The position numbers were made by a program, and so were the translations under genes. The notes beneath the pieces were generated by a model, which did no database searches, was not told the DNA's origin, and was given only the letters and a program-made list of their open reading frames with translations. A stretch of DNA of 64,000 nt from Echinarachnius parma (lineage: Eukaryota; Echinodermata; Echinoidea; Clypeasteroida; Echinarachniidae): positions 1-64,000 of the forward strand of contig JBAMJV010007757.1 of assembly GCA_037951105.1 (NCBI GenBank), in the 5' to 3' direction. Shown in pieces: positions 3,699 through 38,012 of the stretch (position 1 is the stretch's first letter; every line of letters begins with the position of its first letter).

Positions 3699-6600
3699 GT
3701 AATGATGATGATGATGATGATGATGACGGTGACAATGGCAAAGATAATGATGATGATGATGATGAAGATGTTATGCCATATTCCATCAGGCTACTGCTAG
3801 TGGCTTCTCTCTTGCATTTCATCTTGTCTACTGGAAACCACCTTCCCCTCTCTCTAATGTCTATTGAACGCCACCTCCTCTTTACTTCTTGCAGGCAAGC
3901 AGTCGATGCTGGGGAGCGTGGTGGACGAGGATGAGCTGGAGGAGTACAGGAAGAAGAGTGAGAAACAGAACAAGGAGATACGCAAACTCAGGGATCAGAT
4001 CCAATCCGAGGTGAGTTAACCCATAGCTTACGGGAACCCGGTGGGACAAGTACAAACTCTGTGGAGATTTCAGAATCTCGAGGTGAACAGGTTTAACAAA
4101 AAAAAGAAACTGTTCAAATGACACAGCTGATTAGAAAAAAGAAAGTCGAGGACTTGAATTCTCAAAAATGTCTCAATTCTTCCTTGATCTGTCCTTTCAA
4201 TGTCTCTTCTATAGAGAACAAGATGTCTGAAGAAATGTGAAAAATGGAGGAGAAGTGGAAGGAAAAGAAAGAATGCTGTTGAGATCCATCTCCTGAGGAT
4301 CGCAGCGATTATACAAAATTAGAAGCTTGATATTATCTTTCTCATCTGTCACTTTAATGTCTCGTCTTTGTTATATCGGAATGATCTATTTATCTTTATA
4401 GGTCTCGTCAATAGAGAACAAGATGTCGGACGAAATGCGCTAGGTGGAGGAGATGTGGAAGGACAAACAGAAAGCGGTGAGGTCACACCACAAGGAAAGG
4501 GGGAAAGAGTTAAAGGGTCGATGAGTTCAAGGCCCAACATATACTATTTCTTTAACTGTCAAGTCAAGGCTCAATTATTCTCAATTTGTTCTCAATCTGT
4601 CCTATTAAGGTTTCATCGATAGAGAACAAGATGTCAGACAAAAAATGGAAGGACAAACAGAAGACGGGGAGGTCCCACAACAGGGAGGAGGTCAAGGAAT
4701 TTAAGGCTCAAAATGTTTGAACATCAAGACAAGGACTTGAATTCTCAAAATGTCTTGATTCTTTCTCAATCTTCCCCTCTTAGGTCTCATCGATAGAGCA
4801 CAAGATGTCGGACGAAATAGAGGAAAAGTAGAGGAAAAGTGGAAGGACAAACAGAAAGCGGTGAGGTCCCGCCACAAGGAAAGGGGGAAAGAGTAAAAGG
4901 GTCGATAATTTAAAGGTCCTGATGTACTCTTTCTTAATCAAGGCTCAATTATTCTCAATTCTTTCTCAATCTGCCCTTTTAAGGTCTCATCGATAGAGCA
5001 CAAGATGTCAGACAAAATGCGCTAGGTGGAGGAGAAGTGGAAGGACAAACAGAAGGCGGTGAGGTCACACCACAAGGAAAGGGGGAAAGAGTTAAAGGGT
5101 CAATGATTTAAAGGCCCCAAATATACTCTTTCTTTATCTGTCAAGTCAAGGCTCAATTATTCTCAATTTGTTCTTAATCTGTCCTTTTGAGGTTTCATCG
5201 ATAGAGAACAAGATGTCAGACAAAAAATGGAAGGACAAACAGAAGGCGGGGAGGTCCCACCACAGGGAGGAGGTCAAGGAGCTGATGGCTCAAAATGTTT
5301 GAACATCAAGACAAGGACTTGAATTCTCAAAATGTCTTGATTCTTTCTCAATCTTCCCCTCTTAGGTCTCATCGATAGAGCACAAGATGTCGGACGAAAT
5401 GCGCAAAGTAGAGGAGAAGTGGAAGGACAAACAGAAAGCGGTGAGGTCCCGCCACAAGGAAAGGGGGAAAGAGTAAAAGGGTCGATAATTTAAAGGTCCT
5501 AATGTACTCTTTCTTAATCAAGGCTCAATTATTCTCAATTCTTTCTCAATCTGCCCTTTTAAGGTCTCATCGATAGAGCACAAGATGTCAGACGAAATGC
5601 GTAAGGTAGAGGAGAAGTGGAAGGACAAACAGAAGGCGGTGAGGTCACACCACCTCGAGGAAGTCAAGCACTTAAAAGCTTGAAATCTGTGAAATAAAGG
5701 GTCAAATTGTCTTCATTCTTTCATAATCTGTCCCTCTAAGGTCTCATCGATAGAGCACAAGATGTCGGACGAAATGCGTAAGGTAGAGGAGAAGTGGAAG
5801 GACAAACAGAAGGCAGTGAGGTCACACCACAAGGAGGAGGTCAAGGAGCTAAAGGGTCTTCTGGAACACACCAAGCAACTGCTGAACATTGAGAGGCAGG
5901 GCGGGGACAAGAAAGGGGCAAAGTACGAGCGCCAAATGGAGGATTTACTCAAGGTAGGTGGAATTATTTGGTTAAGGTGTCTTTTTTTGCATGAAAAACA
6001 AGCACAGAAAATGTGTTTTAATCAATTTAATTGGCTCAAAGGGTCTTCTGGAACACACCAAGCAGTTGCTGAACAAAGAACAATGTGAATGTTTGTTCAT
6101 AGCATCTTTTTTTTATATGAATAGTGAAAAAATGAGCAAAGAAAGTGGAATCAAACCTGAGACCTCTGGGTTCCTAGATCGGTGCTCTAACCATTAAGCC
6201 ACAAGGCCATTGAGCCACAATGATGGTCAAAGGAAGTCAAACAGCTGTGAATTCTTCGTTTAGAATTTTTTTTTTCATTGCCGTTCTGTGATTTAGTATG
6301 CAGATTAAATTTTGAAATCTGAAAACGCATACTTTTTTTTAAGGTCCCCAACTGTTGTGTTGGTTTTCTGAATATCTTTAACTTTAGTTATTTACATGTA
6401 CCTTTCCATTCTCTCTGTTTGTAATTCACACAGAAAAATAAAGAGTATGAAAGACAGATCAGAACTAGTGAAGAGAAGATAAAAGAGTTGAAAGAAAAAT
6501 CTGTAAGTATTTTTCTTTTGTTGAACAAGTTTGCAGAAAATCACATCATGTAATTTGTATGTAAACTCTCTACTATTCAAAGTTTCACAAGTTTTCATAT

Positions 6601-9600
6601 TACCGCCAAACAAAGTTTGAAAGAAATCAGCGTACGGTCGGGCGGTAGTTCCATGCAAAAACGTTGTGTAGCGAACTACTTGCACATTTTTAAAGCCATT
6701 TTTAAGAAATTAAGGTACATTTGATGTTCTTGAGGTGACGACGTGCAAGACATATTTTGTGTGTATGTCGGACAAGGCGCTGCCATGGTGACCACAATTT
6801 TGCACCAAAAATAAGGAGCGCAAAGTTCAATGTCACCATCATTCACGAGTAACTGAGAATAATGAAAGATTGGTTTGCTTCCGTTCCTTCAGCGAGACAC
6901 TTTATCCACACTTGCTGCTCTCAACCCAGGAGGGTGTTTCACAAAGATCCTTCAAGTTTGAATTCTGAGCTTGACTTTAAATTATGAGAAGCCATTATTT
7001 GCTATGTAGGATTTATACATTATTTTTTTTAATACATCATTGAATTTTGTTTTTTTAAGTTTAACTATTTTTTCTTTATTGAGGATATTCAATATTCTTG
7101 GTGTAAATTTGTATTAAAGGCTCAAATATATGCATTTTTGCTCGTGTACATTTTTTTCAATCCGAGGCTACAAATGGCTTTCCATAACTGTGAAACACCC
7201 CCTAGATGTAATAAATGGGTACCTGGCAGGATATGATTCCTTAGGATGCTTGATACGCCTGCAAGGCAGCTCGCCTACAGCCAGGGTAATAATATACTCT
7301 TCAGTATAATACCCGGCAGAATATAACTTCTACATTGATGGCGCAATATAAATGCTGGTCTATTATCCTTTGTTTAATTATTATTATTTCATCTATCGCA
7401 GTCCAAGCACTACGAGGTGGTCGAACCCCGGCTATCCCCTCCGCCCAGGATGACGATCAGCGACGAGAAGAACATGGCGCAGCCGTATTCCGACGATGAC
7501 GAAGAAGAAGAAGAAGACACCGACATGGGTAAGAAATATGTTTTTATTTGTTAACAGTTTATGTTTCTGTTTATTATTATTCTGTTTCGGGGCTACTTGA
7601 TGAATGTTGTTGTTTTTTGTTTTTTTGAGGCTCTCCACCTGACAAATGTTCAACGCTGGAAAAAAAATGCTCAAATGTTGAACCCATTCATGACGATTTG
7701 ATTGCGATGTATGATGCAATCTTCATAGACCAAAGGCAGAGTATTTCCTGGACCAGTCCTAAAACATCATGCTCTATTTCTCCCAATTTAGTCTACATTT
7801 TGAGATTTTTTTTCTCACATAAACATTGAGCTTTTTTTGTTGAACATATGTCGGTGGGGAGAAAGAAGAATATCTATACTGATGTCTTGTTTTATAGTTT
7901 TAATTTTCACTTTTTTAGACAAAATCTTTATCGTTGATAGAACTCTAGAACTGTAGATTGTTTGACTGCCTTCGTATCAATGCCTGCACTTGCATGAGCA
8001 GTGACTTGCTGTTGTTATGACTATTCTATGTTTCTTGAAACAAATAAGGAATTATACAGATAGTACATCTTTAAAAGGATGTAATATACACATAATTTTC
8101 TGCACCCTGCAGTGATTCAACTCTTTCTTGGTTTGCCCCATTTCTTTAATTTTTTTGTTGTTGTTTGCATGTGTATCTCACTCTCAACCTGGCCAGTGTA
8201 TTTCTTCTTTTTTTAAGTCAGTTTGATTGTGTTAGTTTGTTGCATGCAGATAGTTGGCATGAGTGCTTGTTTTTTTCTTTTCTGTTGCACAAATTTGCAT
8301 GAATTAGCTTGAAGTAGGCATCTTTTCAAGTTTCTACAGATAATGGAAAGTACTGCGTTTTCTGTTCCTACATTACTATTTCAACATTGGACAAAGTATG
8401 ATATTCATGCTCAGAGACAAACTAAACATACAAGATAATCAACAATTCATTTCAAACAAATGTTGCACTAAATGTATTGTATTGTGCACTGCACATGTCA
8501 CATTCATTACTTTTTGCAATTTTCATGTGCACAGTAGGCTGGTCAAGTAAACATTACCATGGCATCGCATCACGTTTTGCTTCACAGCAACACATGTCTG
8601 TCTTATGAGCATCACATTAGTCTCACATGACTGTCACATGATCATTTTATTATCACATGACTGTCACCTGATTTGTATCAAGTCTTCCATTTCCTTATCT
8701 AGCTCCTTGTACGTCCAGAAAGTTTACAACAGTATTATGAAGTTTTCATTCCTTTTAATTAATGGATGAGAAATTGATATACAATCTCTTGGAAATATGA
8801 TCAAAGGAATGTTTAAATGATGTATTATACTATTTATATAGTTGATTATTGTAATGCTGACATCGTTTAAAACATAGGAAAATCTAACGTGAAGTAAGAT
8901 CATGTAACTGACTGAACAATTATCCAAATGCAAGTATTACTTTTGACAGATTTTGTCATGCAGGGCTAAAAATAAGCATTGGCCCAGAGCTACTAAAAAT
9001 TGAGCTTGATTATTAAAGTTTGATATAATTATATTGAGCCGAAGTTTGACTCTCTTAAATGAGCAATCAAATCTAACAAATTTGTCAATTGATGTTTCGT
9101 TGATTTTGGTCTTCTGAGTACCTGCTCTGACCACCATTGCCAATATGGAAATATTCTTCTAACTTACTCGCTGGACAGCATCACTGTGAATTTATATGAT
9201 TATTTTGAGCATATATAATAATAATAATAATAATATGAACATTTATATAGCGCAGCTACTATAAATATATATACTCTACTGCGCTTAAATAATTATTTAA
9301 TTATTATTACCCATGGTCATCAGGTACATTTCAAACCGACACAATGATATTGCATACTTTCTCAAGTCCCCAGGGAGCATACTAGCCGAGCTGCCACTGA
9401 TGATGGCGCTAAGGCTAATTAACACCTGAACACGGTACCCATTTATACACCCGAGTAGAGAGCAGTAATTGTGGATTAATTATATGTGACATTAATGTAC
9501 AATATCATCAATCCATTCCATTTTTCTGTTCCACCCATATGCATGTCCAACCAACTCCAATTTCTCACTCGATTCACAAATATGATCGTGACCGTGGTGA

Positions 9601-12600
9601 TTTTGACGGTAACGGTGTCGATGACGATACATAACGAAACTGTTACCAGGAGGCGGTATGGATACGCTATCTCGCGTACTGCAAGAATCCGAATCTTGGT
9701 TGACGGGCACGCATCCGTCCTATCACTCAGGTCAGCATGGATAACAAATATATCTTGAAAAATTAGCTTTTCTAAATAATCTCTTGAACATTAAACTATA
9801 CAAAGGAGACAGAAAGGACTGCTAAAAACTGCTTATTAAAAACTGCTTATTAAAAACTGCTTATCCACAATAAAAGAAATGAGTGTCAATAATATGCCTG
9901 AACTTTTATTCTTTGCACCATCTCCATCATAGGCCAAATTTCCTGGGGGGGGGGGGGGGGGGGGGGTTTCACAACAATTTTTAGTTTAACTTAAATTTAG
10001 GTTGGACTTTAAGCTATGGAAAGCCATTTGTAACCTTGGAATGAAAAACAAATATTCAAGAGCAAAAATGCTGATATTTGAGACTTTTAATGCATTTTAC
10101 ACCAAAAATATTAAATCTCTTTGATAATAGAAAATAGTTATGCTTTTAAAACACAATTTAATGTTAGATTCAAAGAGTAATGTGTACAGTTTACATAGCA
10201 AAATTATGGCTTCCCATAATGTTAAGTCTAACTTAGAATTGAAGTTCAACTTAGGAACTTTTTGTGAAACACCCCCCAGGCCACTGATGAGATTTTGCTA
10301 TGATCGGAAACTCAGGCCTACTTTTGACTCTCAGACTATTGAACTTTTATATTCCATTGGGTATTTAACTATTCAACTTTTATAATCTCTTAACCATTCA
10401 ACTTTTACCATCTCTATATCTTGAACATCTAAAACCTCTTAATGTTTAAGTTTCCTAATCTCATGTGTATATAAAAAAATACCTTTATAGTCTCTTGAAT
10501 GTGCTAATATTTGAAAAGAAAGCTTGAATATCAAATGCTGTTTACTCATTAACATTTACCGAATTAATTTAGGAATAATACACTCTATTACTCAGAAAAT
10601 GTATACCACTAAAACAATACTGTCAAATAACATATTTAATGTGAGAGGGGACATTCCCTAAAAAGTGCTAAATTCATCTCACTTTACCAAAAATTAAGTC
10701 ATTTAATATTAATTCTTAATTTAAAAAAAATTGTTTAAACACTCTTATTTAGTTGAAACAAGCTATTACAAATTCCCATAAATTCCCCATGCCATTTCAC
10801 TATCATCACCCATTTTCAAACTTTGTCCTTATCTTTCATCAGCATTATTTATGTTTGAATTAATCAGCATTTTGAGGTAACACCCCTAATAATATATCAT
10901 CATTTGGCTAATAAATTAATGTTTCAGTCACTTGCATACATTTGTATCATCTAATACGAGACTTACCATTATTTCATGAACAACTAATTATATTATCAAC
11001 TAACTTTCCCCTATTTGGTAGCACTAAACCACATTCCTCATCAACATAATATCTAACATTTTTATCAACTTTGTTGTTTTTTTCATTAACATTTTTATAA
11101 TCTCATTGAGTTTTGCTAATATTTTTTCAAATTTGAATTTAAGCAGGGATCGTTTAATTTTCTCATTATGTTGAGTAATCATCATTCGTTTAAAATAAAG
11201 AATCATTATTTGACTCTGTTTTCGTAATTTGATATAATTTGAGATATTACATTTCTTTCTTTTGTGTAATGAAATCTTTAAACTTAAGGATTACTTTAGT
11301 TTAGGTACTATAAAAAAAAAACATTTTTTGCTAACTTACTTTGCATATTTGAATGCTTTTGAGTTGCTCAGTTGTTTGCTACCAAAAAAAAAATAGTTCC
11401 CTCATGTCCACAAACAAAATATTAAAGAAACTTTCATTCCATTTTTCTTTTTGACTAGAAAGTAGAAAGCTATGTTTTTTTTTCTGTAGCATGTTTTTGT
11501 GATATGTACATGTACGTACGTACCTGCATCTTATGCTTGAATATATTCATGTTTTTTCCCCTGGTGTGGCCGCTGTGAATTATTTTGTGTGAACGACGAC
11601 AGACATTGCAGAGGATGAGCTGGATGGCACTGGCTACGAGCAAATCGACCAGCAGACATGTGGGTATCAGTTTTAAAGACCATCGAGTCATTTTGTAATA
11701 TTACACAACTAACACAAGCCTCCACAGAGTCCACACTAACTTTTTCTCTCTACTAGCCCGGTTGGGCAAGTAAAATCGTAAATGTTCAAATTTTACTTGC
11801 CCAAACAGAAAATTTACTTGCGCATTTACTTCTAGATGAGATTTACATGTATGGAATTACACTCTACTCTCGCAGTTGAAGAGAAATTTAAGTTGCCCGA
11901 TCGAGCGAGCAAACTAGACTTTTTTAATGAAATTTTACTTGCCCAACATCAATTTTTACTTGCCCCTAGTAAGCGGGCAAGTGTTAGTATCAAGCCCTGT
12001 ATAACATAATATTTACATTTATAATTCACTCCTGACGAAGGACAGACAACCTGTAAACATGTCGCGTTCCTCTTATCACTCCACTCTACTTCTTCATATA
12101 ATACCGATGCTGCAGAGCTGCCAACCATTCCGTTTTTGCCGTAATTGTTGTTTTTTCTATGTACATTAATTACGGCAGTACGATTTTTTTCTTTTTTCTA
12201 TCAAATAAAAAAAAGAATATTCTTATTTATTTTGATTTTTTTTAATGTTTAAGAGTTTAGAGACAACGTTCAAACACTTTAATATGTAATATGCACGTTA
12301 TGAGCACCTACCCTGTTCAAATATACAATCTTCAAATTGATTGTCCAATTTTGTGCGCAAACTGCAGTATGTAGAGTATTATAGCTATGAAGGTTATTTT
12401 TTTAATGATAATTAATCAACAAAATTTGTTCTCTGAAAATTCTTTCTTAGGGGGCCATTTCATTCTTTTTTTGTTATCAAGGTTGGCAGCTCTGGCGCAG
12501 TAGTCCTTTCCAGAATACAAGCTCAAAAAAGAATACCAACAGTCCTTTCTGGGACTACCACAGTTCTTTTAGGACACCCCAAGATAGAATTATACAGTTC

Positions 12601-15600
12601 TTTTTAGGACTACCCACTCCCTCCCTTTTCTTGCATGATGCTTCCGTAAGTCAACTGTATCTACATCATAGAGAGCGAGATTTATATGCAACATCTTTGT
12701 TGTTTATTTTTCGCCGTAGCTTTATCTATTTATTCTAGAGAATTTTAAATCAGTAGACACATTTTGTAATCTGTATTTGATTTTGCTTGTTTCAATTAGA
12801 AAAGTTCTGTTGCTTCACTCAAAATTACGTAATCTTTGCTGTTTATTGTTAAATCCTTTTGCTTCGGAAGGACATTAAATCATTAGACACACTTTGAAAT
12901 AGATATTAATACATGTTTATTTCACTGATGTTGCATTCTGTTGCTTTTGAGAAACATATTAGTCATATGTTGTGTCACCGTATCATGCAGTCTTCATTGT
13001 TTATTGAATATCGGCTTTATTGTATCGCTTCTAAAGAGCTTGAAACCAATAGACATATTTTATGTCATCATATGTACTGTTCACTGTTTAATTTACGTTG
13101 GCTTTATTCTATCGCTTCTAAACAAATTTAAACAGTAGACTTTTTATCATCTAATCCTCTATGGCTGTTATATATTCCATCTAGACTACTGTATCAATTT
13201 TGTTTACATACCAAGTTGTTTTTCTTTTGCAACAACAGTTCAGCAGAACAAAGAGAGGATAGTAAGAGGACTGAAGGACGAACTGACCGGCGTCCTGCAG
13301 AGGAATATGGAGAAGAGAGGCATACCGGAGGTAAGTCAGACGATCCTTCTATCATTCTTCATTAGAGTGGTTTCGACATCAAAAGGGCACACTTTCAGTT
13401 TGACTAGAATAGAAGAGGATAGTAAGAGGACTGAAGGATGAACTGACCGGCGTCCTGCAGAGGAATATGGAGAAGAGAGGCATAACGGTCCTTCTATCAT
13501 TCTTCATTAGAGTGGTTTCGACATCAAAAGGGCACACTTTCAGTGTGACTAGAATAGAAGAGGATAGTGAGAGGACTGAAGGATGAACTGACCGGCGTCC
13601 TGCAGAGGAATATGGAGAAGAGAGGCATTCCGGAGGTAAGTCAGACGATCCTTCTATCATTCTTCATTAGAGTGGTTTCGACATCAAAAGGGCACACTTT
13701 CAGTTTGACTAGAATAGAAGAGGATAGTGAGAGGACTGAAGGATGAACTGACCGGCGTCCTGCAGAGGAATATGGAGAAGAGAGGCATACCGGAGGTAAG
13801 TCAGACGATCCTTCTATCATTCTTCATTAGAGTGGTTTCGACATCAAAAGGGCACACTTTCAGTTTGACTAGAATAGAAGAGGATAGTGAGAGGACTGAA
13901 GGATGAACTGACCGGCGTCCTGCAGAGGAATATGGAGAAGAGAGGCATACCAGAGGTAAGTCAGACGATCCTTCTATCATTCTTCATTAGAGTGGTTTCG
14001 ACATCAAAAGGGCACAATTTCAGTTTGACTAGAATAGAAGAGGATAGTAAGAGGACTGAAGGATGAACTGACCGGCGTTCTGCAGAGGAATATGGAGAAG
14101 AGAGGCATTCCTGAGGTAAGTCAGACGATCCTTCTGTCATTCTTCCTTTAAACTGGTTTCGACATCAAAAGGGCACACATACTTTCAGTTTGACTAGAAT
14201 AGAAGAGGATAGTAAGAGGACTGAAGGATGAACTGACCGGCGTCCTGCAGAGGAATATGGAGAAGAGAGGCATTCCGGAGGTAAGTCAGACGATCCTTCT
14301 ATCATTCCTCATTAGGGTGGTTTCAACATCAAAAGGGCACACTTTCAGTTTGACTAGAATAGAAAAGGATTGTGAGAGGACTGAAGGATGAACTGACCGG
14401 CGTCCTGCAGAGGAATATGGAGAAGAGAGGCATTCCGGAGGTAAGTCAGACGATCTTTCTATCATTCTTCATTAGAGTGGTTTCGACATCAAAAGGGCAC
14501 ACTTTCAGTGTGACTAGAATAGAAGAGGATAGTAAGAGGACTGAAGGATGAACTGACCGGCGTCCTGCAGAGGAATATGGAGAAGAGAGGCATTCCGGAG
14601 GTAAGTCAGACAATCTTTCTATCATTCTTCATAAGAGTGGTTTAGACATCAAAAAGGGCACAATTTCAGTTTGACTAGAATAGAAGAGGATAGTGATAGG
14701 ACTGAAGGACGAACTGACTGGTGTTCTGCAGAGGAATATGGAGAAGAGAGGCATTCCGGAGGTAAGTCGGACAATCCTTCTGTTATTCTTCCTTTAAACT
14801 GGTTTCGACATCAAAAGGGCACAATTTCAGTTTGACTAGAATAGAAGAGGATAGTGATAGGACTGAAGGATGAACTGACCGGCGTCCTGCAGAGGAATAT
14901 GGAGAAGAGAGGCATACCGGAGGTAAGTCAGACGATCCTTCTATCATTCTTCATTAGAGTGGTTTCGACATCAAAAGGGCACACTTTCAGTTTGACTAGA
15001 ATAGAAGAGGATAGTAAGAGGACTGAAGGATGAACTGACCGGCGTCCTGCAGAGGAATATGGAGAAGAGAGGCATACCGGAGGTAAGTCAGACGATCCTT
15101 CTATCATTCTTCATTAGAGTGGTTTCGACATCAAAAGGGCACACTTTCAGTTTGACTAGAATAGAAGAGGATAGTGATAGGACTGAAGGATGAACTGACC
15201 GGCGTCCTGCAGAGGAATATGGAGAAGAGAGGCATTCCTGAGGTAAGTCAGACGATCCTTCTATCATTCTTCATAAGAGTGGTTTCGACATCAAAAAGGG
15301 CACACATACTTTCAGTTTGACTAGAATAGAAGAGGATAGTGATAGGACTGAAGGACGAACTGACCGGCGTCCTGCAGAGGAATATGGAGAAGAGAGGCAT
15401 ACCGGAGGTAAGTCAGACGATCCCTCTATCATTCTTCATTAGAGTGGTTTCGACATCAAAAGGGCACACGTACTTTCAGTTTGACTAGAATAGAAGAGGA
15501 TAGTGATAGGACTGAAGGACGAACTGACCGGCGTCCTGCAGAGGAATATGGAGAAGAGAGGCATACCGGAGGTAAGTCAGACGATCCTTCTATCATTCTT

Positions 15601-18600
15601 CATTAGAGTGGTTTCGACATCAAAAGGGCACACTTTCAGTTTGACTAGAATAGAAGAGGATAGTGAGAGGACTGAAGGATGAACTGACCGGCGTCCTGCA
15701 GAGGAATATGGAGAAGAGAGGCATTCCGGAGGTAAGTCAGACGATCCTTCTGTCATTCTTCCTTTAAACTGGTTTAGACATCAAAAGGGCACAATTTCAG
15801 TTTGACTAGAATAGAAGAGGATAGTGATAGGACTGAAGGACGAACTGACCGGCGTCCTGCAGAGGAATATGGAGAAGAGAGGCATTCCGGAGGTAAGTCA
15901 GACGATCCTTCTATCATTCTTCATTAGAGTGGTTTCGACATCAAAAGGGCACACTTTCAGTTTGACTAGAATAGAAGAGGATAGTAAGAGGACTGAAGGA
16001 TGAACTGACCGGCGTTCTGCAGAGGAATATGGAGAAGAGAGGCATTCCTGAGGTAAGTCAGACGATCCTTCTGTCATTCTTCCTTTAAACTGGTTTCGAC
16101 ATCAAAAGGGCACACATACTTTCAGTTTGACTAGAATAGAAGAGGATAGTAAGAGGACTGAAGGATGAACTGACCGGCGTCCTGCAGAGGAATATGGAGA
16201 AGAGAGGCATTCCGGAGGTAAGTCAGACGATCCTTCTATCATTCCTCATTAGGGTGGTTTCAACATCAAAAGGGCACACTTTCAGTTTGACTAGAATAGA
16301 AAAGGATTGTGAGAGGACTGAAGGATGAACTGACCGGCGTCCTGCAGAGGAATATGGAGAAGAGAGGCATTCCGGAGGTAAGTCAGACGATCTTTCTATC
16401 ATTCTTCATTAGAGTGGTTTCGACATCAAAAGGGCACACTTTCAGTGTGACTAGAATAGAAGAGGATAGTAAGAGGACTGAAGGACGAACTGACCGGCGT
16501 CCTGCAGAGGAATATGGAGAAGAGAGGCGTACCAGAGGTAAGTCAGACGATCCTTCTATCATTCCTCATTAGAGTGGTTTCGACATCAAAAGGGCACAAT
16601 TTCAGTTTGACTAGAATAGAAGAGGATAGTAAGAGGACTGAAGGATGAACTGACCGGCGTCCTGCAGAGGAATATGGAGAAGAGAGGCATTCCGGAGGTA
16701 AGTCAGACAATCTTTCTATCATTCTTCATAAGAGTGGTTTAGACATCAAAAAGGGCACAATTTCAGTTTGACTAGAATAGAAGAGGATAGTGATAGGACT
16801 GAAGGACGAACTGACTGGTGTTCTGCAGAGGAATATGGAGAAGAGAGGCATTCCGGAGGTAAGTCGGACAATCCTTCTGTTATTCTTCCTTTAAACTGGT
16901 TTCGACATCAAAAGGGCACAATTTCAGTTTGACTAGAATAGAAGAGGATAGTGATAGGACTGAAGGATGAACTGACCGGCGTCCTGCAGAGGAATATGGA
17001 GAAGAGAGGCATACCGGAGGTAAGTCAGACGATCTTTCTATCATTCTTCATTAAAGTGGTTTCGACATCAAAAGGGCACACATACTTTCAGTTTGACTAG
17101 AATAGAAGAGGATAGTGATAGGACTGAAGGATGAACTGACCGGCGTCCTGCAGAGGAATATGGAGAAGAGAGGCATTCCTGAGGTAAGTCGGACAATCCT
17201 TTTGTCATTCTTCTTTTAAACTGGTTTCGACATCAAAAGGGCACACTTTCAGTTTGACTAGAATAGAAGAGGATAGTGATAGGACTGAAGGATGAACTGA
17301 CCGGCGTCCTGCAGAGGAATATGGAGAAGAGAGGCATTCCGGAGGTAAGTCAGACGATCTTTCTATCATTCTTCATTAGAGTGGTTTCGACATCAAAAGG
17401 GCACACTTTCAGTTTGACTAGAATAGAAGAGGATAGTGAGAGGACTGAAGGATGAACTGACCGGCGTCCTGCAGAGGAATATGGAGAAGAGAGGCATACC
17501 GGAGGTAAGTCAGACGATCCTTCTATCATTCTTCATTAGAGTGGTTTCGACATCAAAAGGGCACACGTACTTTCAGTTTGACTAGAATAGAAGAGGATAG
17601 TGATAGGACTGAAGGATGAACTGACCGGCGTCCTGCAGAGGAATATGGAGAAGAGAGGCATTCCTGAGGTAAGTCAGACGATCCTTCTATCATTCTTCAT
17701 AAGAGTGGTTTCGACATCAAAAAGGGCACACATACTTTCAGTTTGACTAGAATAGAAGAGGATAGTGATAGGACTGAAGGACGAACTGACCGGCGTCCTG
17801 CAGAGGAATATGGAGAAGAGAGGCATACCGGAGGTAAGTCAGACGATCCCTCTATCATTCTTCATTAGAGTGGTTTCGACATCAAAAGGGCACACGTACT
17901 TTCAGTTTGACTAGAATAGAAGAGGATAGTGATAGGACTGAAGGATGAACTGACCGGCGTCCTGCAGAGGAATATGGAGAAGAGAGGCATTCCTGAGGTA
18001 AGTCGGACAATCCTTTTGTCATTCTTCTTTTAAACTGGTTTCGACATCAAAAGGGCACAATTTCAGTTTGACTAGAATAGAAGAGGATAGTGATAGGACT
18101 GAAGGACGAACTGACCGGCGTCCTGCAGAGGAATATGGAGAAGAGAGGCATACCGGAGGTAAGTCAGACGATCCTTCTATCATTCTTCATTAGAGTGGTT
18201 TCGACATCAAAAGGGCACACTTTCAGTTTGACTAGAATAGAAGAGGATAGTGAGAGGACTGAAGGATGAACTGACCGGCGTCCTGCAGAGGAATATGGAG
18301 AAGAGAGGCATTCCGGAGGTAAGTCAGACGATCCTTCTGTCATTCTTCCTTTAAACTGGTTTAGACATCAAAAAGGGCACAATTTCAGTTTGACTAGAAT
18401 AGAAGAGGATAGTGATAGGACTGAAGGACGAACTGACCGGCGTCCTGCAGAGGAATATGGAGAAGAGAGGCATTCCGGAGGTAAGTCAGACGATCCTTCT
18501 ATCATTCTTCATCAAAGTGTTTTTTGACATCAAAAGGGCACACTTTCAGTTTGACTAGAATAGAAGAGGATAGTGATAGGACTGAAGGATGAACTGACCG

Positions 18601-21600
18601 GCGTTCTGCAGAGGAATATGGAGAAGAGAGGCATACCACCATCTAAAGGGCACACATACTTTCAGTTTGACTAGAAAAGATAGGGATAGTAAGAGGACTG
18701 AAGGATGAACTGACCGGTGTTCTGCAGAGGAATATGGAGAAGAGAGGCATACCGGAGGTAAGTCCGACAATCCTTCTGTCATTCTTCCTTTAAACTGGTT
18801 TCGACATCAAAAGGGCACAATTTCAGTTTGACTAGAATAGAAGAGGATAGTGAGAGGACTGAAGGATGAACTGACCGGCGTCCTGCAGAGGAATATGGAG
18901 AAGAGAGGCATACCGGAGGTAAGTCAGACGATCCCTCTATCATTCTTCATTAGAGTGGTTTCGACATCAAAAGGGCACACGTACTTTCAGTTTGACTAGA
19001 ATAGAAGAGGATAGTGATAGGACTGAAGGATGAACTGACCGGCGTCCTGCAGAGGAATATGGAGAAGAGAGGCATTCCTGAGGTAAGTCGGACAATCCTT
19101 TTGTCATTCTTCTTTTAAACTGGTTTCGACATCAAAAGGGCACAATTTCAGTTTGACTAGAATAGAAGAGGATAGTGATAGGACTGAAGGACGAACTGAC
19201 CGGCGTCCTGCAGAGGAATATGGAGAAGAGAGGCATACCGGAGGTAAGTCAGACGATCCTTCTATCATTCTTCATTAGAGTGGTTTCGACATCAAAAGGG
19301 CACACTTTCAGTTTGACTAGAATAGAAGAGGATAGTGAGAGGACTGAAGGATGAACTGACCGGCGTCCTGCAGAGGAATATGGAGAAGAGAGGCATTCCG
19401 GAGGTAAGTCAGACGATCCTTCTGTCATTCTTCCTTTAAACTGGTTTAGACATCAAAAAGGGCACAATTTCAGTTTGACTAGAATAGAAGAGGATAGTGA
19501 TAGGACTGAAGGACGAACTGACCGGCGTCCTGCAGAGGAATATGGAGAAGAGAGGCATTCCGGAGGTAAGTCAGACGATCCTTCTATCATTCTTCATCAA
19601 AGTGTTTTTTGACATCAAAAGGGCACACTTTCAGTTTGACTAGAATAGAAGAGGATAGTGATAGGACTGAAGGATGAACTGACCGGCGTTCTGCAGAGGA
19701 ATATGGAGAAGAGAGGCATACCACCATCTAAAGGGCACACATACTTTCAGTTTGACTAGAAAAGATAGGGATAGTAAGAGGACTGAAGGATGAACTGACC
19801 GGTGTTCTGCAGAGGAATATGGAGAAGAGAGGCATACCGGAGGTAAGTCCGACAATCCTTCTGTCATTCTTCCTTTAAACTGGTTTCGACATCAAAAGGG
19901 CACAATTTCAGTTTGACTAGAATAGAAGAGGATAGTGAGAGGACTGAAGGATGAACTGACCGGCGTCCTGCAGAGGAATATGGAGAAGAGAGGCATTCCG
20001 GAGGTAAGTCAGACGATCCTACTATCATTCTTCATTAGAGTGGTTTCGACATCAAAAGGGCACACGTACTTTCAGTTTGACTAGAATAGAAGAGGATAGT
20101 GAGAGGACTGAAGGACGAACTGACTGGCGTCCTGCAGAGGAATATGGAGAAGAGAGGCATTCCGGAGGTAAGTCAGACGATCCTTCTATCATTCTTCATT
20201 AGAGTGGTTTCGACATCAAAAGGGCACACTTTCAGTTTGACTAGAATAGAAGAGGATAGTAAGAGGACTGAAGGACGAACTGACCGGCGTCCTGCAGAGG
20301 AATATGGAGAAGAGAGGCATACCGGAGGTAAGTCAGACGATCCCTCTATCATTCTTCATTAGAGTGGTTTCGACATCAAAAGGGCACACGTACTTTCAGT
20401 TTGACTAGAATAGAAGAGGATAGTGATAGGACTGAAGGATGAACTGACCGGCGTCCTGCAGAGGAATATGGAGAAGAGAGGCATTCCTGAGGTAAGTCGG
20501 ACAATCCTTTTGTCATTCTTCTTTTAAACTGGTTTCGACATCAAAAGGGCACAATTTCAGTTTGACTAGAATAGAAGAGGATAGTGATAGGACTGAAGGA
20601 CGAACTGACCGGCGTCCTGCAGAGGAATATGGAGAAGAGAGGCATACCGGAGGTAAGTCAGACGATCCTTCTATCATTCTTCATTAGAGTGGTTTCGACA
20701 TCAAAAGGGCACACTTTCAGTTTGACTAGAATAGAAGAGGATAGTGAGAGGACTGAAGGATGAACTGACCGGCGTCCTGCAGAGGAATATGGAGAAGAGA
20801 GGCATTCCGGAGGTAAGTCAGACGATCCTTCTGTCATTCTTCCTTTAAACTGGTTTAGACATCAAAAAGGGCACAATTTCAGTTTGACTAGAATAGAAGA
20901 GGATAGTGATAGGACTGAAGGACGAACTGACCGGCGTCCTGCAGAGGAATATGGAGAAGAGAGGCATTCCGGAGGTAAGTCAGACGATCCTTCTATCATT
21001 CTTCATCAAAGTGTTTTTTGACATCAAAAGGGCACACTTTCAGTTTGACTAGAATAGAAGAGGATAGTGATAGGACTGAAGGATGAACTGACCGGCGTTC
21101 TGCAGAGGAATATGGAGAAGAGAGGCATACCACCATCTAAAGGGCACACATACTTTCAGTTTGACTAGAAAAGATAGGGATAGTAAGAGGACTGAAGGAT
21201 GAACTGACCGGTGTTCTGCAGAGGAATATGGAGAAGAGAGGCATACCGGAGGTAAGTCCGACAATCCTTCTGTCATTCTTCCTTTAAACTGGTTTCGACA
21301 TCAAAAGGGCACAATTTCAGTTTGACTAGAATAGAAGAGGATAGTGAGAGGACTGAAGGATGAACTGACCGGCGTCCTGCAGAGGAATATGGAGAAGAGA
21401 GGCATTCCGGAGGTAAGTCAGACGATCCTACTATCATTCTTCATTAGAGTGGTTTCGACATCAAAAGGGCACACGTACTTTCAGTTTGACTAGAATAGAA
21501 GAGGATAGTGATAGGACTGAAGGACGAACTGACTGGCGTCCTGCAGAGGAATATGGAGAAGAGAGGCATTCCGGAGGTAAGTCAGACGATCCTTCTATCA

Positions 21601-24600
21601 TTCTTCATTAGAGTGGTTTCGACATCAAAAGGGCACACTTTCAGTTTGACTAGAATAGAAGAGGATAGTAAGAGGACTGAAGGACGAACTGACCAGCATC
21701 CTGCAGAGGAATATGGAGAAGAGAGGCATTCCTGAGGTAAGTCGGACGTTATTTCTATCATTCTTCATTAGAGTGGTTTCGACATCAAAAGGGCACACAT
21801 ACTTTCAGTTTGACTAGAAAAGATAGGGATAGTAAGAGGACTGAAGGATGAACTGACCGGTGTTCTGCAGAGGAATATGGAGAAGAGAGGCATTCCGGAG
21901 GTAAGTCAGACGATCTTTCTATCATTCTTCATAAGAGTGGTTTAGACATCAAAAGGGGCACAATTTCAGTTTGACTAGAATAGAAGAGGATAGTGATAGA
22001 ACTGCACGATGAACTGACCGGCGTCCTGCAGAGGAATATGGAGAAGAGAGGCATACCAGAGGTAAGTCAGACGATCCTTCTATCATTCTTCATTAGAGTC
22101 GTTTCGACATCAAAAGGGCACACGTACTTTCAGTTTGACTAGAATAGAAGAGGATAGTGATAGGACTGAAGGATGAACTGACCGGCGTCCTGCAGAGGAA
22201 TATGGAGAAGAGAGGCATACAGAAGTGGTCGAGTGTACTGGGAGTTTATGGCAACATTAAGTTATCGTTTCTGAATTTGCTTTAGGATGATTGCAGCATT
22301 ACGAAGTGGAAATTGGTTGAGAGGGGTATTTAGGGGGTGTTACTCTGAACTACACCGAGCATGGTGGCTTAGCGGGCATGGTGGCTTAGCGGTTAGAGTG
22401 TCCGCCTCATGCACGGGAGGTCCCGGGTTCGAACCCAGACCGGGTCATACCAAAGACTTTAAAAATGGTACCTTCTGCCTTCTAGCCAGACACTCGGCAT
22501 TTATAGAATGGAGAAGGGAAAGTTAATCACACGAGTTACCAGAGGACTAGCCCCCTTCTGTAAATTTCGCTACATTTAGTAGACGTGTGGCCTAGGGCTA
22601 TTGAAACGGAGATAGGCGCCGCCTTATGTGCCAACATTGGTACGGGAAAGACTTTAACTAACTTAACTAACTCTGAACTACACCACCCTAATACATGTAC
22701 AATGTACATATTATTTCTTTCAACAAATGTGGAAATCTCTAGTCAAATAACACTTGTACTTATTCTAATGTAATCAGACACAATATTTGTGTGCATTTGC
22801 TGCGTGCAGTGTTACTCGTGTATAATATGACTTTTTAAAATAACGTGAGGTATTTTCTTGTATTGGTCACAGGGTATGAAGGGAATCTCGGGCCAGTCGC
22901 TCGAGAACAAGATCAAAGTTCTGAAACAAGAGCGTCAGTCGTTGGCCAAGAATCACTTGCAGTTCTACGACATCCGCGAACGTTTCAAGCGGGAGGTCGA
23001 CCGGCGTGCCGCGGAGCTCAGGAAAAGCGGGAAGCCCACCGTAAAGGTCTCTCGTGCAGGTGATTTGAGTTTCATGTTGGTTTAATTTGATTTGATTTGA
23101 CAAATAATTGCATACAAAATACATTTTAACCATTTAGCTGGATATGTAAATGCATTATTATAAGTATTTGTATGACTATTTTTATCATTATTATTATTAT
23201 CATTATTATACAAGTTGCAATAGTTTGTTAAAGCGATCCATTTACTTCAGAAGATTTTTCCAAAAGTGGTATTTGAGACTTGAACCATATATACCAATAC
23301 CATTGTAAAATTCTTTTGAATGATGTGCAAAAGTTTCATGGAAAAATAAAGCTCTTTCTGAATTTGGATACTGTGTGCAATCAATGTATCTGAATTTGTA
23401 TTCTTCTGAATACATTAGAAAAGCACTCTGGAACGCTTGGACAAATTTATCCACCACTTTTCTCATATTTTTGCGTGGAAATAGATTTAATTCTAATAAA
23501 ATCATAGCCTAGGTAAAATCCATCCCAATTTTTGTTATCACCATCCAGTTTCACCGCAACCCAAAGTGAGTAGAGTGCCCGCAACACCGCCGCCAGCTTA
23601 CACAGAGTTGGCCACACCAAATTATGATAGAGTTAAACCCAGGGGGAAACCGCAACCACAACCGCAAAATCAGAAGCAGAATGGGAAACAAAAGCAACAA
23701 CTACAACAGCAACAACAACAACAGTCTTGGCAGCAGAAACAAAACCAAAGACAGAAGCAACAACAACAACAACAACTCGAGCAGCAGAAGAAACCGCTTC
23801 AACCGGCCATCAAGAAGCTTTCTCCAGGGCAAGTGAAGGCCCCGCCCCCAATCGCGCCTCGCAGTCCAGTGATGAACGGGCGGGGGAGGGGTAAAGCGAC
23901 CACCTCGAAGCAAGCCTCAAGAGTGTGAGTAATAACGATTAACCCATAAAGAACTGGGGGTGTATTCTGAAAACGATTTTAAGTTAAAATTTATTGTATC
24001 TACTTCATATCTACGTCACTAAAATATTACACTGTACTTAAAGGGTACCACCACCCAAAAATAATATTCTTATGTTTCCAGAAAAAAAATATATAATTGG
24101 AAAACGCATCGCCATTCTAAAGCATGCGTTCATGCGGTCTAAATTGCGAAGACTAATGTGTGCAGAGCGAACGAATCGCCTGGGAATCTATTGTCTACAA
24201 ACGTACCCGTGAATAGCATTGGCGCACTCGCAAATGGTTGGCCCGTATGGAACCAGGAAATAGTAGTGGTTCCGTAAGTGGTGGAAATCAATTGCTTTGT
24301 TTATGAATTAACAACCCTTTGCAAAATGTTGGGTATCTATTTGATATCACAAAACGGTACCAAAACATATAATGAGGTGTTGTTCTTTGCCTGGTGGTCC
24401 CCTTTAAGGAATAGCGATTTGCAAAGAAATATATTTGAGTGACGTAGATATGACGTAGATAAAATAAATTTAAACTTCAGAATACCCCCCCAGATACATG
24501 TTTTACGAGAATCAAGTGTTGTACAAGTAAAAAAGCCTTGGGGGTTTAGGAACAAAGGATATGGTGTGGGAAGCATTAAGAGGATGCCGGGGGGGGGGGG

Positions 24601-27600
24601 GGGGCAGGGGGCAGGGGCTTTGAGTCAAACTGCCCTGCCTCGAAGTACAGAGTTGAGCGGCAGGGGTAGGGGAAAACCCACCCCCTCTAAACAAGCTAAA
24701 CACTAGCATTATATTTGGAGATGCAGATTAATGAAGAGGAGAAAATATTTTTACAGATCCTCCGAGGACGACAGCGAGGAGGAAGAAGAATAAAGTGAAG
24801 AGGAGAAGGAGGAAAATGATAGTTTTACAGATTCAGAAGACTGAAGAGGAGGAGAAAAGGGGTTAATATATTTTATCAACCATTAATATCTCCTACCTCC
24901 TATTATTTTTTTTACAGATTCCTCGAGGAAGAAGAGTAAGAAAGTGGTAGTTTTATGGATTCAGAAGATGGGAGAGGAGGAGAAAAGAGGCTTGATATGA
25001 TTTTATCAACCATTAATATCTCCTACCTCCTTCTATTTTTTTTAACAGATCCATCAAGGACGACAGCTAGGAAGAAGAGAGTTATGAGGAGGGGGAAAGT
25101 GAAAGTTATGGATATTCAGAAGATGTAGAAAAGAGGCTTGATATCATGGGCGTAGATACTAACGTAATACCTATTCATCAGGGGGGGATGAATGAATAGA
25201 TCACCCCCCCCCTGATGAATAGGTATCAATGACAGATCTACGCCCATGCTTGATATATTTTATCAACCATTAATATCTCCTACCTCCTCCTATTTTTTTT
25301 AACAGATCCTTTGAGGACAGCGAGGAAGAAGACGAGAGTTCTGAGGAGGAGGAAAGTGGAAGTTTTGGAGATTCGGAAGACGAGGAGGAGGATCACTATA
25401 AAAAGCCATCCGTTCCTCCAAGAGCTGCGGCTCACTCCCAGCCGGCCACAAACGGCTTCCATAAAAACGGGATCACTGAGGTAATAATGATTCAGATAAA
25501 AGTTACTTGGTAACTTTGTTGTCAGTTTATAATGATAAAATGTTATGCTGGCAAAATACTCTGTGGAAATTTCATGGCAAATGGATGCATTTTGGCTAGG
25601 GTATGGGTGAAAAGGAAAATGAAGAAAGTAGATGGATGGATAGATAGATAGATAGATATACGTAGATGAACAAAAATAGGGAACATTATACAAAGCTTTT
25701 GTAACTGGTGTAAAAAATAAATAAAGATGGCTAACAATACATTATCTTTTATCATGTAGTCAGTGTCACACTGGGGCAAATTATCTAGATAATTGAATTA
25801 TCTAAATAAGTATATAAATACATAGGTGAGTTGTCTAAATAACTGTTATCTACTGTACTGTACATAGATAATAGTTATTTAGATAATTGTGTGTGACACC
25901 GGCTAATGAGATGCAAATCCCAGCAAGATCACTTGGAGGTGACATTCCAACCTGTTTACAAAATTAGTGTAAATTTTATCCTACTGTTCACATTCCTTCC
26001 TTGTAAATTTCACCCACCACCTGTTAGTCAATTACAAGGGGCTGCATATTTGAAGAGTTAAATTAATTAACTTTGTCTTTTATTTTGTATAATAATTAAC
26101 AAGCAGGAGTGCATTCCTACCTTGTTATGTGACAGGATGTGTGTATATTTCATCCTTGTAGAGATTATAAGCAGTGCATATGTTGAATGTACATTTCAGT
26201 GAGACCTGTCAATCATTGTCAAGAAAGGTCTGGCAATCATTCAGGTTCAGAAATCTATTATGTGGAAAGTTTTATGAACACAATTCCTACTTCATGGCGT
26301 GTAAATGCAATATTTTAGTCTCTCTTGTGTTTTTATTCATTTTTTAAATATTTTGCTTAACTGTGCTAATTTGATTTGGATCTTAAAGGGATGCCTGTAA
26401 AGTTTCTAACTCTACGAATATTACTTGGAGCTTCCTCGTTTCTCTTTTACTGTGTTATGTTTAGCTTATGGTAAGAGAAGAATAAAATAGGGTTAGATTT
26501 TTTCAAATGCCCCTTTAGTATGACGATATCTATCATTCAGCTCAAAAGCGTTAATTAACGGTCGTAAACCTCATAAACGTCCTTTGTAAAAGCTGACGCA
26601 TATTTTCGCTTTTTTAACCAGGTACCATAGCATTTGCGCCGTAATTCACAGCATGGCTAGTATATGCTCCCCGGGGAGTACGCAATTTCATTGTGTGGGT
26701 TTGAAAATATGTACCTGATGACCATGGGTAATAATAATAATAATATAAAGAGCAGTAGAGTATATATTTATAGAAGCTGTGCTATATTTGACCGACTATA
26801 GCAAAACCCTGCACTTGTGGGTAAAAATCAAAATGTAGATGATCATACCATTAGAAAGGCCTCATTACAAGCTTTCATTTGGTGCTTTGCTCTAACGATT
26901 TGGTGAATAATTGACGAAGATATGATTATTTCAAATTTACAATCATAAGTCTTTTACACACATTATGTGAACTTAAAATGCCCAATTCTTCAAAACATGA
27001 ATTACCGACAAGTGCCGGGTTTTGCTATAGCCGGTCACATATGAGACCGGCTCTGACAAAATCCGGAACTTCGTCGCTTGTATGATTTTGCGTAAATGGC
27101 CTGAAAAGGTCAACAATTTAGCTCAGGGACAAAATGGACATTTTAGTAATTGATTGATTGAAGTTTATTATGTCCATGATCATTACATAGAAAATTGTTT
27201 TCCACTGGTTACATTTATCAAACTGGTTGACATATCAAAATACAAATAAATCACATCCATAAACAATATTTGTTGACATCCATAGCATTTCAATATAGTG
27301 TACATTAAATCAAACTACCATTTAACAGTTACATATTCTGTACAATTATTTTCATATAAATTAACAAAATCAATTTCTTCATATGCTCCCTTTCAAACAA
27401 TATAATCCCCCCGTTACCAATGAAATATTTATATAATATTGACTGGCCTTGAGGGGGATACGACATAATATTGCCTGAACTAGATTCATATTGCCCGAGT
27501 CGAAGACGAGGGCAATATGGATCCTAGTGAAGGCAATATATGTCGTATCCCCCGAAAGAGCTAGTCAATATCATTATTATTACCCATATCAGAAATCTTG

Positions 27601-30600
27601 AGCAGTAACGGAAATTAGTAAAATGTAAACTTTGTATTTAAAGGGTACCACCACCCAAAACTAATATTTGTATAATAGAAAGGTAACATCTTTAGTATTC
27701 CATTCCATCAACAAGTTCACAAAAATATGTTTGCAGAAAAAAAATATATAATTGGAAACCGCATCACCATTCTAAAGCATGCGTTTATGCGGTCTGAATT
27801 GTGTAGACTACCGCGGGTGCAGCAAGCGAATCGCTCGGAATTATATTGCCTACAAACGTACGCGTGAGTAGAATTGGCGCACTCGCAAACCAGGAACCAG
27901 GAAATAGTAGTGGTTCCGTAAGTGGTGGAAATTAATTGCTTTGTTTATGAATTACTCAACCCTTTGCAAAATGTTAGGTATCTATTTGATATCACAAAAC
28001 AGTACCAAAACATGTAGTAATGTGTTGTTATTTGCCCGGTGGTCCCCTTTAAACATACCAAAACCAAGTCTCTGCTTGATAAAATGTCACAAGTACGGCT
28101 GCGGCTTGTTTCGTGTACACACCAATGGCAAATCACTATCGCAAGATTTTTCCCGCGGGCCAGTTCACTTTGTACAATTTCGACTACGAATCGTGAAGTG
28201 CCCGGATGTCATATTCCCCTCTTTTTTTAACACGTAAATCCCATAGGCTTTTGTGAAAGAGGGGAATATGGGAAATATTCCCCTATTTCACCTGCTGGCA
28301 CTTGAAACGAGGGGAATATGATTTTGTAAAACCACAGCTCAGATGTCTGATATGGGTAATAATATGTATTAATTGCATCAAAAATAGTTTCACTATAGAG
28401 TATTCAACAACATTAACATATTACGTATCATCATTTTTGTCGAGCCCTCCATAGGTGGAGGGAGACTAAGGGATCCAAATTGCGTCCGTCTGTCCTCCCT
28501 CCGTCCTCCATCCTCCGTTCGTTCGTCCGTGACCCTTACACAAATTGTAATAACTTTCCAACCCTGCATCTGTTTGTAACCAAACTTGATTTGTAGATGC
28601 CCTACATTGGCCTCCGTGATATTCTGGGGTCAAAGGTTAAATGGGGTCAAATGTGAAGTTTTACCTGTAAGAGTCTATTAGGGTTGATAACTTTCCAACC
28701 CTGCATCTCTTTGTAACCAATCTTGATTGGTAGATGCCCTACATTGGCCTCCATGATATTCTGGGGTCAAATGTCACATAAGTAGGTCGAAGGTCAAATG
28801 TGAAGTTTTACCTGTAAGAGTCTATTAGGGTTGATAACTTTCCAACCCTGCATCTGTTTGTAACCAAACTTATTCTGGGGTCAAAGGTCACATAAGTAGG
28901 TCAAAGGTCAGATGAGGCCAAATGTGAAGTTTTACCTGCAAGAGTATATTAGGGTTGATAACTTTCCAACCCTGCATCTGTTTGTAACCAAACTTTATTG
29001 GTAGGTGCCCTATATTGGCCTCTATGATATTATGGGGTCAAAGGTCACATAAGTAGGTCAAAGGTCAAATGTGAAATTTTACCTGCAAGAGTCTTATTAG
29101 GGTTGATAACTTTCCAACCCTGCATCTGTCTGTAACCAAACTTGATTGGTAGGTGCACTATATTAGCCTCCATGATATTCTGGGGTCAAAGGTCAAATGA
29201 GGTCCAATGTTGCATGAATGCGCGCAAGTGGGCGAGACACTTTACGGCTATTGCCTTGTCTATTTACCAACTAGACAGGTTTTATAATTCAGAGTTGAAC
29301 TTTAACATTAAATCATTATATATTAATTCTCAATATTTCAAACAAATATTTAATTACCAATAAATAATTACAAAACAAATCCTATCGTTAAATTCTCCAG
29401 CTTTATCCAATCAACAAAGTTGTGTATGAATAACTATAGTATCATATTGTTAAGCAACTTTTCTAGTTTCTAATGAGATATGCAAAATTCTGAAATATTA
29501 TCGGGAAAATGGCTATATCTTAGGATAAAATCAAGAATGACATGTACTTTAAACTGAATGTTGAACTTTAACCTCAATTATCTCCATTGTTTCAGCAGAA
29601 TAAGAAAAATAATACAAAAATCATAACTTCGTCAATTTTTTTCTGCTCGGCATAAAAATGGTTTCAAAATAAAGGGGAAAAAAACACCAACATCGTATCA
29701 AAAGCTCAATTTTACATTTTGTGTCAAAGTTGCTGGTTTTGCCAGAGCCGGTCACATATAATTGTTCATATTTATGATTACTATATTATTATTTCCCCTC
29801 TTGGTAGGGCCAGGAGGAGGAGGAGGATGAAGATAGCCAGTGGGATTCGGAGGAGATCGACGAATTAGAGGAGAAACGTGATCGAGCGCCCGTGACTAAA
29901 CCACCTGTGACGTCGGTCAGAAAAACAAAGGTAAGCAGTTTTTGCTTTTGATTCAATACTGCCTAGACACTGCACTGCCACTTTCTTTTTATAGTAAATC
30001 TTAAGGGACTATCTCACTGGAGACGTCGCCGCGACTGATCAGTCGCGGCTACTCGGGAGACCCAAAAATGGCTTGCAATCTCACCAAGGCGACGCCAAGG
30101 CAACGTCTCTGCGAAGTCGCACGGACGTCGCCGCGACGTCTCGGGCAGTTGCGACGAGGTCCTCGCAATGTCTCCGGCAGTTGTGGCGACGTCTCCGCAA
30201 TGTCTCCGATAGGACGCCATGGGTCTCCACAAGGTTGCGGAAACGTCGCCGCGACTTCTGCCTGTCTATATATACCTAGATCTACAACTATGATAAAGAC
30301 CTCAGTCACGTGGTCTCTAAAGTGGGTCAAGCAACGTCAAGCAGTGTCGCGGAGACGTCTCCCCAGTCGCGGACATAATTAGTCTCCGCGACGTCGCCGC
30401 AACTGATGGAGATGTCGCGGAGACGTCTCCGAGACCTGCTGGAGACTGGAAAAAGTCTCCAAAAAATCGAACATGTTTGATTTCCCAAGGACAGAAGCCT
30501 GTGGGAAGGGTGGATTTAGGCCCAAGGGATGAGGGGTGGGGGTGGGGGGGGGGGGGGGGGGGGGGTAGAGCCTCAACATTATGTTGGAAAAAATTCTTAG

Positions 30601-33600: not shown

Positions 33601-33806
33601 AATTTACAATAGTAATGAGCAATATAAAACAAAAATCATCAAACATTATACAATCAAAGCAACAATGATAAATAAGTTGGGAAAGAGGTACTCATATTAA
33701 ATGAGTGCTGCTACTCATGAATATCTGAATATTCAATTAGTAGCAGTGTTACTGCTTAAAACTTGCATTTTGTTTTGCTAACCACTATCATTTATGTAGG
33801 AAAAAA

Positions 33807-33849
<43 letters not shown>

Positions 33850-34511: not shown

Positions 34512-34616
34512 AACATTATGCAACGATGAGAGACGCATATTTCAGTCCCATACCTACCAATTCGTGTTGTCCATATCATTCACCATATCTGAGATTATAC
34601 ACTGCCCAATTTTCAT

Positions 34617-34728
34617 TGCTGATGATGATGATGATGATGATGATTATGGCAACAAATTTGGCATTGGATGATTTGTATATAACATTATGAGATACCCATA
34701 TGAGAGACCCATATTTACCCATTCAGGG
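34617..34728 (+). pseudogene. Duplicate of terminal exon in the 3' flank
   Basis: A GAT run followed by aaatttggcattggatgatt then TGTATATAACATTATG parallels the true end (gactttggaattgacgattt then GTAGAACATTATG) and continues through similar ccatatttacc text. The stop is changed and there is no acceptor. Confidence 0.68.
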
Positions 34729-34877
34729 CCCCGTTGCAATTGATTGTAAGTTGCAATTACTTGCAAGTCAGAAAATTAACATATTACAACCAATCAGATT
34801 TGCGCATTTAGTCACATGATCTGACTTACAATTAATTGCAACTTTACAATCCATTGCATCTCTTTCTGTAATGGGGC
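34727..34877. mobile_element. Palindromic MITE (GGGCCCCGTTGCAATTG end)
   Basis: gggccccgttgcaattgatt at the left faces aatccattgcat..aatggggccc at the right, with acttgcaagtca/tgacttac-type arms. Confidence 0.6.
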
Positions 34878-34878
34878 C

Positions 34879-37929: not shown

Positions 37930-38012
37930 ATGGGCCTCGCCGAAAATCAAACCCTCTATGGTTAAACCACCGGCCTACCTATCCGGAGGTCTCGGGCTGC
38001 GATTCCCGGCGA
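37930..38012 (+). mobile_element. tRNA-like SINE fragment
   Basis: atggttaaaccaccggcc followed by ggctgcgattcccggcg resembles tRNA A and B boxes, but the acceptor stem and anticodon arm do not form. Low-confidence SINE head. Confidence 0.3.

Follow-up and report, generated by a model that had tools for sequence, protein, structure and literature searches.

Among genes with tandemly repeated exons, Dscam has a mutually exclusive cluster of dozens of tandem homologous exons, in which the copies have diverged and one is picked per transcript. The LPA KIV-2 array, as presented in passages of PMC11462820, consists of 5.6-kb units with two exons each, present in 1 to about 40 copies per allele and protein-coding. 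Less conspicuous are unannotated tandem exon duplications, for example in OBSCN, UGT1A, and Drosophila hydra and pip; in the sections that deal with them, hydra is given nine initial exons, pip eight repeated clusters, and OBSCN many homologous exons (Ivanov and Pervouchine, 2022; PMC9013439).

The array described here lies in a putative DZIP1 gene within a 64,000-nucleotide stretch of Echinarachnius parma DNA (the window, meaning the whole of the stretch analysed). In the COX1 of this genome (contig C14600), AAA falls at positions that are Asn in animals, ATA at Ile, and AGA at Ser, so that the echinoderm mitochondrial code fits better than the other tables tried; the protein appears sea-urchin-like. 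It resembles LPA KIV-2, as portrayed in those passages, in being an exon-bearing tandem array within one gene, with allelic copy-number polymorphism and silent haplotypes among the units; it differs in its 160-bp units, which contain one partial exon, in its 57 or 55 copies, and in being known from DNA alone (PMC11462820). Like the unannotated duplications, some of which are RNA-supported in the genes concerned, it has exon copies in an intron or adjoining the source exon, but the sections on such duplications give no satellite-like one-exon array of 57 near-identical copies (PMC9013439). With an ordinary intronic minisatellite or variable number tandem repeat (VNTR) it shares a head-to-tail arrangement of ~160-bp units, blocks of higher order, and polymorphism in length; the difference is that its unit carries a coding exon core and an intact donor. 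With Dscam it shares dozens of tandem homologous exons within one gene, but the copies in Dscam are diverged, whereas the exon and intron parts of the units here match the query copy at 89-100% identity. In the literature searched, no array of such copy number with a single-exon unit was found, which does not prove that none has been published.

Judged by these comparisons, the DZIP1 array behaves as an ordinary VNTR at the DNA level and resembles LPA KIV-2 in bearing exons. Its 57 units are probably an intronic VNTR that was seeded by an exon, grew by unequal exchange, and is normally skipped in splicing.

Structure of the array and identity of the gene

An anchor search of the window (bases 1-64000 of contig C7745) found 57 head-to-tail exon-plus-intron units of about 160 bp at 13239-22220 (Table 1), as a preliminary description of this DNA had proposed. 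The 56 spacings between anchors are mostly 160-162 (38 cases) or 164-165 (14); the other four comprise one of 145 and three of 116. The same description took the full 92-bp exon to be repeated, which proved too generous: the repeated part is only its last ~77-78 nt, followed by ~82 nt of intron, and the 14 nt preceding this core in the real exon are unlike those of all 56 other units. Against the 92-nt real exon, the exon parts of the units align over 72 to 81 nt at 91-100% identity. Excluding the truncated last unit, the 56 units comprise 33 distinct units and 24 distinct cores.

Table 1. Features of the putative DZIP1 locus, in window coordinates
Feature	Position	Strand	Remarks
Second exon-bearing array	4202..5740	+	Eight extra partial copies of exon VSSIEHKMSDEMRK; contig C107 has two extra
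Intact VSSIEHKMSDEMRK exon copy	5741..5953	+	Ends CTCAAG/GTAGGT (slash, splice junction)
Real DZIP1 exon, putative array seed (unit 1)	13239..13330	+	92 nt, phase 1 to phase 0, ends GAG/GTAAGT; in-frame join to exon at 22873
56 additional exon-intron units	13331..22220	+	Each a 78-nt core and ~82-nt intron; last unit (57) cut inside exon at 22220
Two-unit stretch, ~325 bp	16942..17266	+	Present in window, missing from C107; exact breakpoint between units 24 and 26
Higher-order structure	17783..21361	+	Run of seven unit types present three times, from units 29, 36, and 45 (unit labels)
Next coding exon	22873..23046	+	Begins GMKGISGQSLENK, phase 0; 3' end approximate
Third exon-bearing array	24757..25305	+	Three upstream copies of acidic exon, starting at ~24757, 24918, and 25049; in-frame stop in each (by eye)
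Intact acidic exon (SFEDSEEEDESSEEEE)	25306..25480	+	

The repeated segment includes an exon with homology to one of the gene's own coding exons, as in a tandem exon duplication, while its head-to-tail units and unequal copy number between alleles are those of an intragenic VNTR. Tandem arrays are not rare in this genome: two of six sampled 10-kb stretches carry one with a period of at least 90 and more than five copies, and the 64-kb window has several more besides the 57-unit array. Searches of the 1.2-Gb genome gave at least 112 matches to the exon query and at least 104 to the intron query; among the matches listed in this filtered search, which may miss some, there was no location beyond the C7745 array and its counterpart on a second contig, C107. 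A dispersed transposon was considered as the origin of the unit and rejected, both parts being absent outside the two allelic arrays in these filtered, lower-bound searches.

Assignment of the array to a DZIP1-like gene, also part of the preliminary description, is supported by linkage, strand, and frame. On C107, a match to PF13815 (Dzip-like_N) was found at 67665-67841 (66 bits, cut-off 27.9; four candidates were scored, and this was the sole match at E up to 1). A C2H2 finger is encoded at C107:69532, on the same strand and downstream of the Dzip-like_N exon; both are upstream of the array. This order, with the Dzip-like_N domain ahead of the C2H2 finger, is a mark of DZIP1. If the array is skipped, with 13330 joined to 22873, the sequence KRGIPE runs in frame into GMKGIS. 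The array exon itself, searched as part of the joined exons, gave no Pfam match above the cut-off and no PDB match below E 0.4. In Drosophila, Dzip1 is a member of a ciliary transition-zone complex, according to a passage in PMC6904220.

A putative second haplotype with 55 units

Contig C107 (255 kb, from the same assembly) holds the same locus and is taken, from alignment of the flanks, to be the other haplotype. The array there has 55 units in unchanged order: what separates the two arrays is a single two-unit difference of 325 bp, together with single-base changes in two other units. At the site of the two-unit difference, the C107 unit resembles a chimera formed from units 24 and 26 of the window. 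Presence of the array on two contigs, with 57 units on one and 55 on the other, argues against an error confined to one contig and indicates that copy number is variable, a polymorphism that the preliminary description had named as support for a biological role; absolute unit number is assembly-based, both contigs coming from a single assembly. The shared order, the chimera-like unit, and the repeated seven-unit block are as unequal exchange or slippage would leave.

Left of the array (7700-13238), 70 SNPs separate the haplotypes over 5,532 aligned bases; at 11001-13000 there are 2 in 2,000, and to the right of the array, at 23001-42000, 12 in 19,000. The shift in divergence is a sharp one, window positions 11001-42000 being near-identical outside the array and much of the leftward stretch differing by several per cent.

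Splice signals and reading frame

The donor GAG/GTAAGT is intact in 52 of 56 units (counting the real exon and excluding the truncated last unit), and the 78-nt core frame is free of stops in all 57 (72 nt were read in the last; the 3' end is altered in four), which bears out the earlier remark that nearly every copy keeps its donor and an open core. For about 20 base changes, however, fewer than one stop is expected, so that open core frames alone say little.

In all 56 non-real units, use of the acceptor homologous to that of the real exon, CTTTCAG, which is out of phase, would give two codons and then a TAG after a phase-0 donor. In the same 56 units an AAWAG lies 14 nt downstream of CTTTCAG, and its use would produce a 78-nt in-frame, phase 0-0 exon; it is the third AG in a row. 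By an approximate scoring matrix, both acceptors fall at about the 62nd percentile among the 3,976 AGs of the window, while the acceptors of four exons taken as real, scored in the same way, are at the 90th to 99th. An alternative acceptor, TTCATTAG, is present in 25 units; it reaches the 93rd percentile, but the frame beyond it, read directly, meets a stop after 13 codons. Because the homologous and in-frame acceptors are weak, and the homologous one leads to a stop, we infer that the units are skipped in splicing, with some room for poison inclusion; expression of array units appears unlikely.

The 26-residue in-frame unit ends in KRGIPE in each copy, and its Gly and Pro should interrupt a continuous helix, and hence a coiled coil. 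The variable-length coiled coils that had been suggested as one role for the array are a weak proposal on this count, and on that of the low-scoring in-frame acceptor.

Variation among the units

Over 160 columns, variation is spread similarly through the exon core (19 of 78 columns variable) and the intron (28 of 82; p 0.22). Divided by class, 10 of 26 third codon positions, 9 of 52 first and second positions, 22 of 51 mid-intron columns, and 2 of 27 splice-flanking columns are variable. In these tests columns were taken to be independent, except that one linked intron block entered a single time; other linkage was left in, and p values are uncorrected for multiple tests; unit 57 was excluded, and unit 1 (the real exon) was included in the column counts and left out of pairwise distances. 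First and second positions are less variable than mid-intron (p 0.005, uncorrected), as are splice-flanking bases (p 0.0016, uncorrected), while third positions show no depletion relative to mid-intron (p 0.81); compared directly, third and first/second positions differ marginally (p 0.052). One run of 27 nt in the exon is invariant across the 56 units tested (p 0.0018).

Silent changes were counted within the core, setting aside the difference of unit 1 at the first core base. With all columns included, 10 of 20 changes are silent (p 0.008 to 0.24, depending on the mutation model; a clustered change at the core start counts as three), and without the clustered change there are 10 silent and 7 replacement (p 0.002 to 0.09). 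Changes found in two or more units, classed by hand, are silent in 10 of 14 cases (p 0.0002 to 0.017 by mutation model), and those in single units in 0 of 6, all altering the amino acid (Fisher p 0.011 for the two groups). Dropping the edge units 54 and 56 strengthens the silent excess greatly; being a post hoc choice, this was not used. Just two core peptides are encoded by 44 of the 57 units, from 16 distinct DNA cores.

The units thus do not look purely neutral, though the signal is modest. The inert intragenic satellite of the preliminary description is still the best-supported of its options, but the neutral evolution of copies that it called for is not cleanly seen, variation being depleted at first and second positions and next to splice sites. 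Present translation, argued from the silent excess, was considered and not accepted; stop-bearing copies in a sister array have the same bias.

Sister arrays at other exons

Arrays also occur at two further exons of the gene (Table 1). With the intact copy included, the VSSIEHKMSDEMRK array has 9 copies in the window and 3 in C107. None of the extra copies aligns past position 120 of the 212-nt intact-exon query, and in the window a stop falls within the 41 codons read in all eight, at or before codon 16 in four of them and at codons 37-40, close to the end of homology, in the other four.

In the main count for this array, which covers eight of the ten extra copies and omits two short or diverged ones (that at window 4202 and the first in C107), 17 of 32 third positions are variable, against 12 of 64 first and second (p 0.0009). 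Including the copy at 4202, over 76 nt, gives 13 of 25 against 7 of 51 (p 0.0007). The bias is also seen among early-stop copies, in the three whose alignment spans the full stretch (10 of 32 against 6 of 64, p 0.0098). Silent bias can therefore outlast exon status, through descent from functional exons or exchange with a living exon, and the same bias in the main array is no proof of present translation. Stop-bearing copies at both sister arrays also indicate that this gene tolerates pseudo-exon arrays.

Possible explanations

A segment made up of the 3' part of one DZIP1 exon and an 82-nt stretch of intron is tandemly multiplied, 57-fold in one haplotype and 55-fold in the other, with higher-order blocks that fit growth through unequal exchange or replication slippage. 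If the array is a skipped VNTR, the spliceosome would recognise the real exon through a stronger acceptor of its own and ignore the units owing to their weak ones; 13330 would be spliced straight to 22873, and the array carried as intron. The silent-leaning variation may have been inherited from an era when the copies were exons, or acquired by exchange with the functional exon, instead of stemming from present translation. This reading draws on the like order of copies in the two haplotypes, the chimera-like unit, the thrice-repeated block, and the in-frame 13330-22873 join, and equally on the low-scoring unit acceptors, the stop inside the homologous acceptor, the stop-bearing sister arrays, and the occurrence of tandem arrays elsewhere in the sampled genome. 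Counted against it are the reduced variation at first and second positions and beside splice sites, the invariant 27-nt run, the perfect donors, and the better-scoring TTCATTAG acceptor.

Alternatively, the exon units of this large, polymorphic array in a cilium gene might be live. The constraint on splice signals and on first and second positions would then reflect real, perhaps tissue-restricted, use of the units, and array length would set the length of DZIP1, or its dose via poison inclusion. Such a reading seems to us unlikely.

More narrowly, the units might serve as poison exons or splicing decoys: occasional inclusion via CTTTCAG or TTCATTAG would bring an early stop, or the many donors would hold U1 and delay or redirect splicing, and copy number would tune DZIP1 output. 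The stop just inside the homologous acceptor in 56 of 56 non-real units fits such a role, as do the 52 perfect donors, the 93rd-percentile acceptor in 25 units, and splice-flanking bases that vary less than mid-intron; but the homologous acceptor is weak, and recent homogenisation may explain the low variation. The splicing trap raised in the preliminary description is possible to this extent, but rather unlikely.

Working cassette exons, spliced via AATAG (or AAAAG) as 78-nt phase 0-0 exons and contributing variable 26-residue repeats to DZIP1, would account for stop-free cores in every unit, for the two peptides that dominate the array, for the silent excess among changes in two or more units, and for the conservation of donors, splice-flanking bases, and first and second positions. 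We consider them improbable: the in-frame acceptor is the low-scoring third of successive AGs; the contrast of third with first and second positions is marginal; the silent excess weakens when all core changes are counted, with all six single-unit changes being replacements; a sister array with stops has the stronger third-position bias, seen even in its early-stop copies; and each unit would add a Gly and a Pro that should break the coil.

Finally, an array inflated or invented through mis-assembly is hardly credible, since, although both array contigs belong to one assembly, they differ in the flank left of the array and in the presence of a SINE, yet have the same unit order with 57 and 55 copies, and the units make an ordered series.

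As a skipped VNTR, the array would amount to a natural experiment in exon definition, in which the real donor is set among 52 perfect donors (itself counted) in a 9.5-kb intron, and function of the gene would require good skipping of the units. Exon-bearing tandem copies occur at three exons of this gene; in two of these sets the haplotypes have unequal copy numbers, and the three together may offer a view of the birth and decay of tandem exons. They also carry a caution, in that a silent-biased pattern in tandem exons is seen in stop-bearing copies too.

Other repeats near the arrays

A tRNA-derived SINE is present at window 22343-22684 (~22357-22670), in the same intron just downstream of the array, and is missing from C107. 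It has a tRNA-Met-like head (22375-22447) and a target-site duplication, CTCTGAACTACACC. A first look across the genome gave 2,270 candidate places for copies of it; 40 were scored, and those 40 matched. An insert that by eye resembles an inverted repeat, near 25146-25250, separates the third copy of the acidic exon from the intact one. Farther along the window, at 42888-45510, two blocks make up a large minisatellite with units of 76-85 bp (TTAACCTGTTCCCTACTAG).
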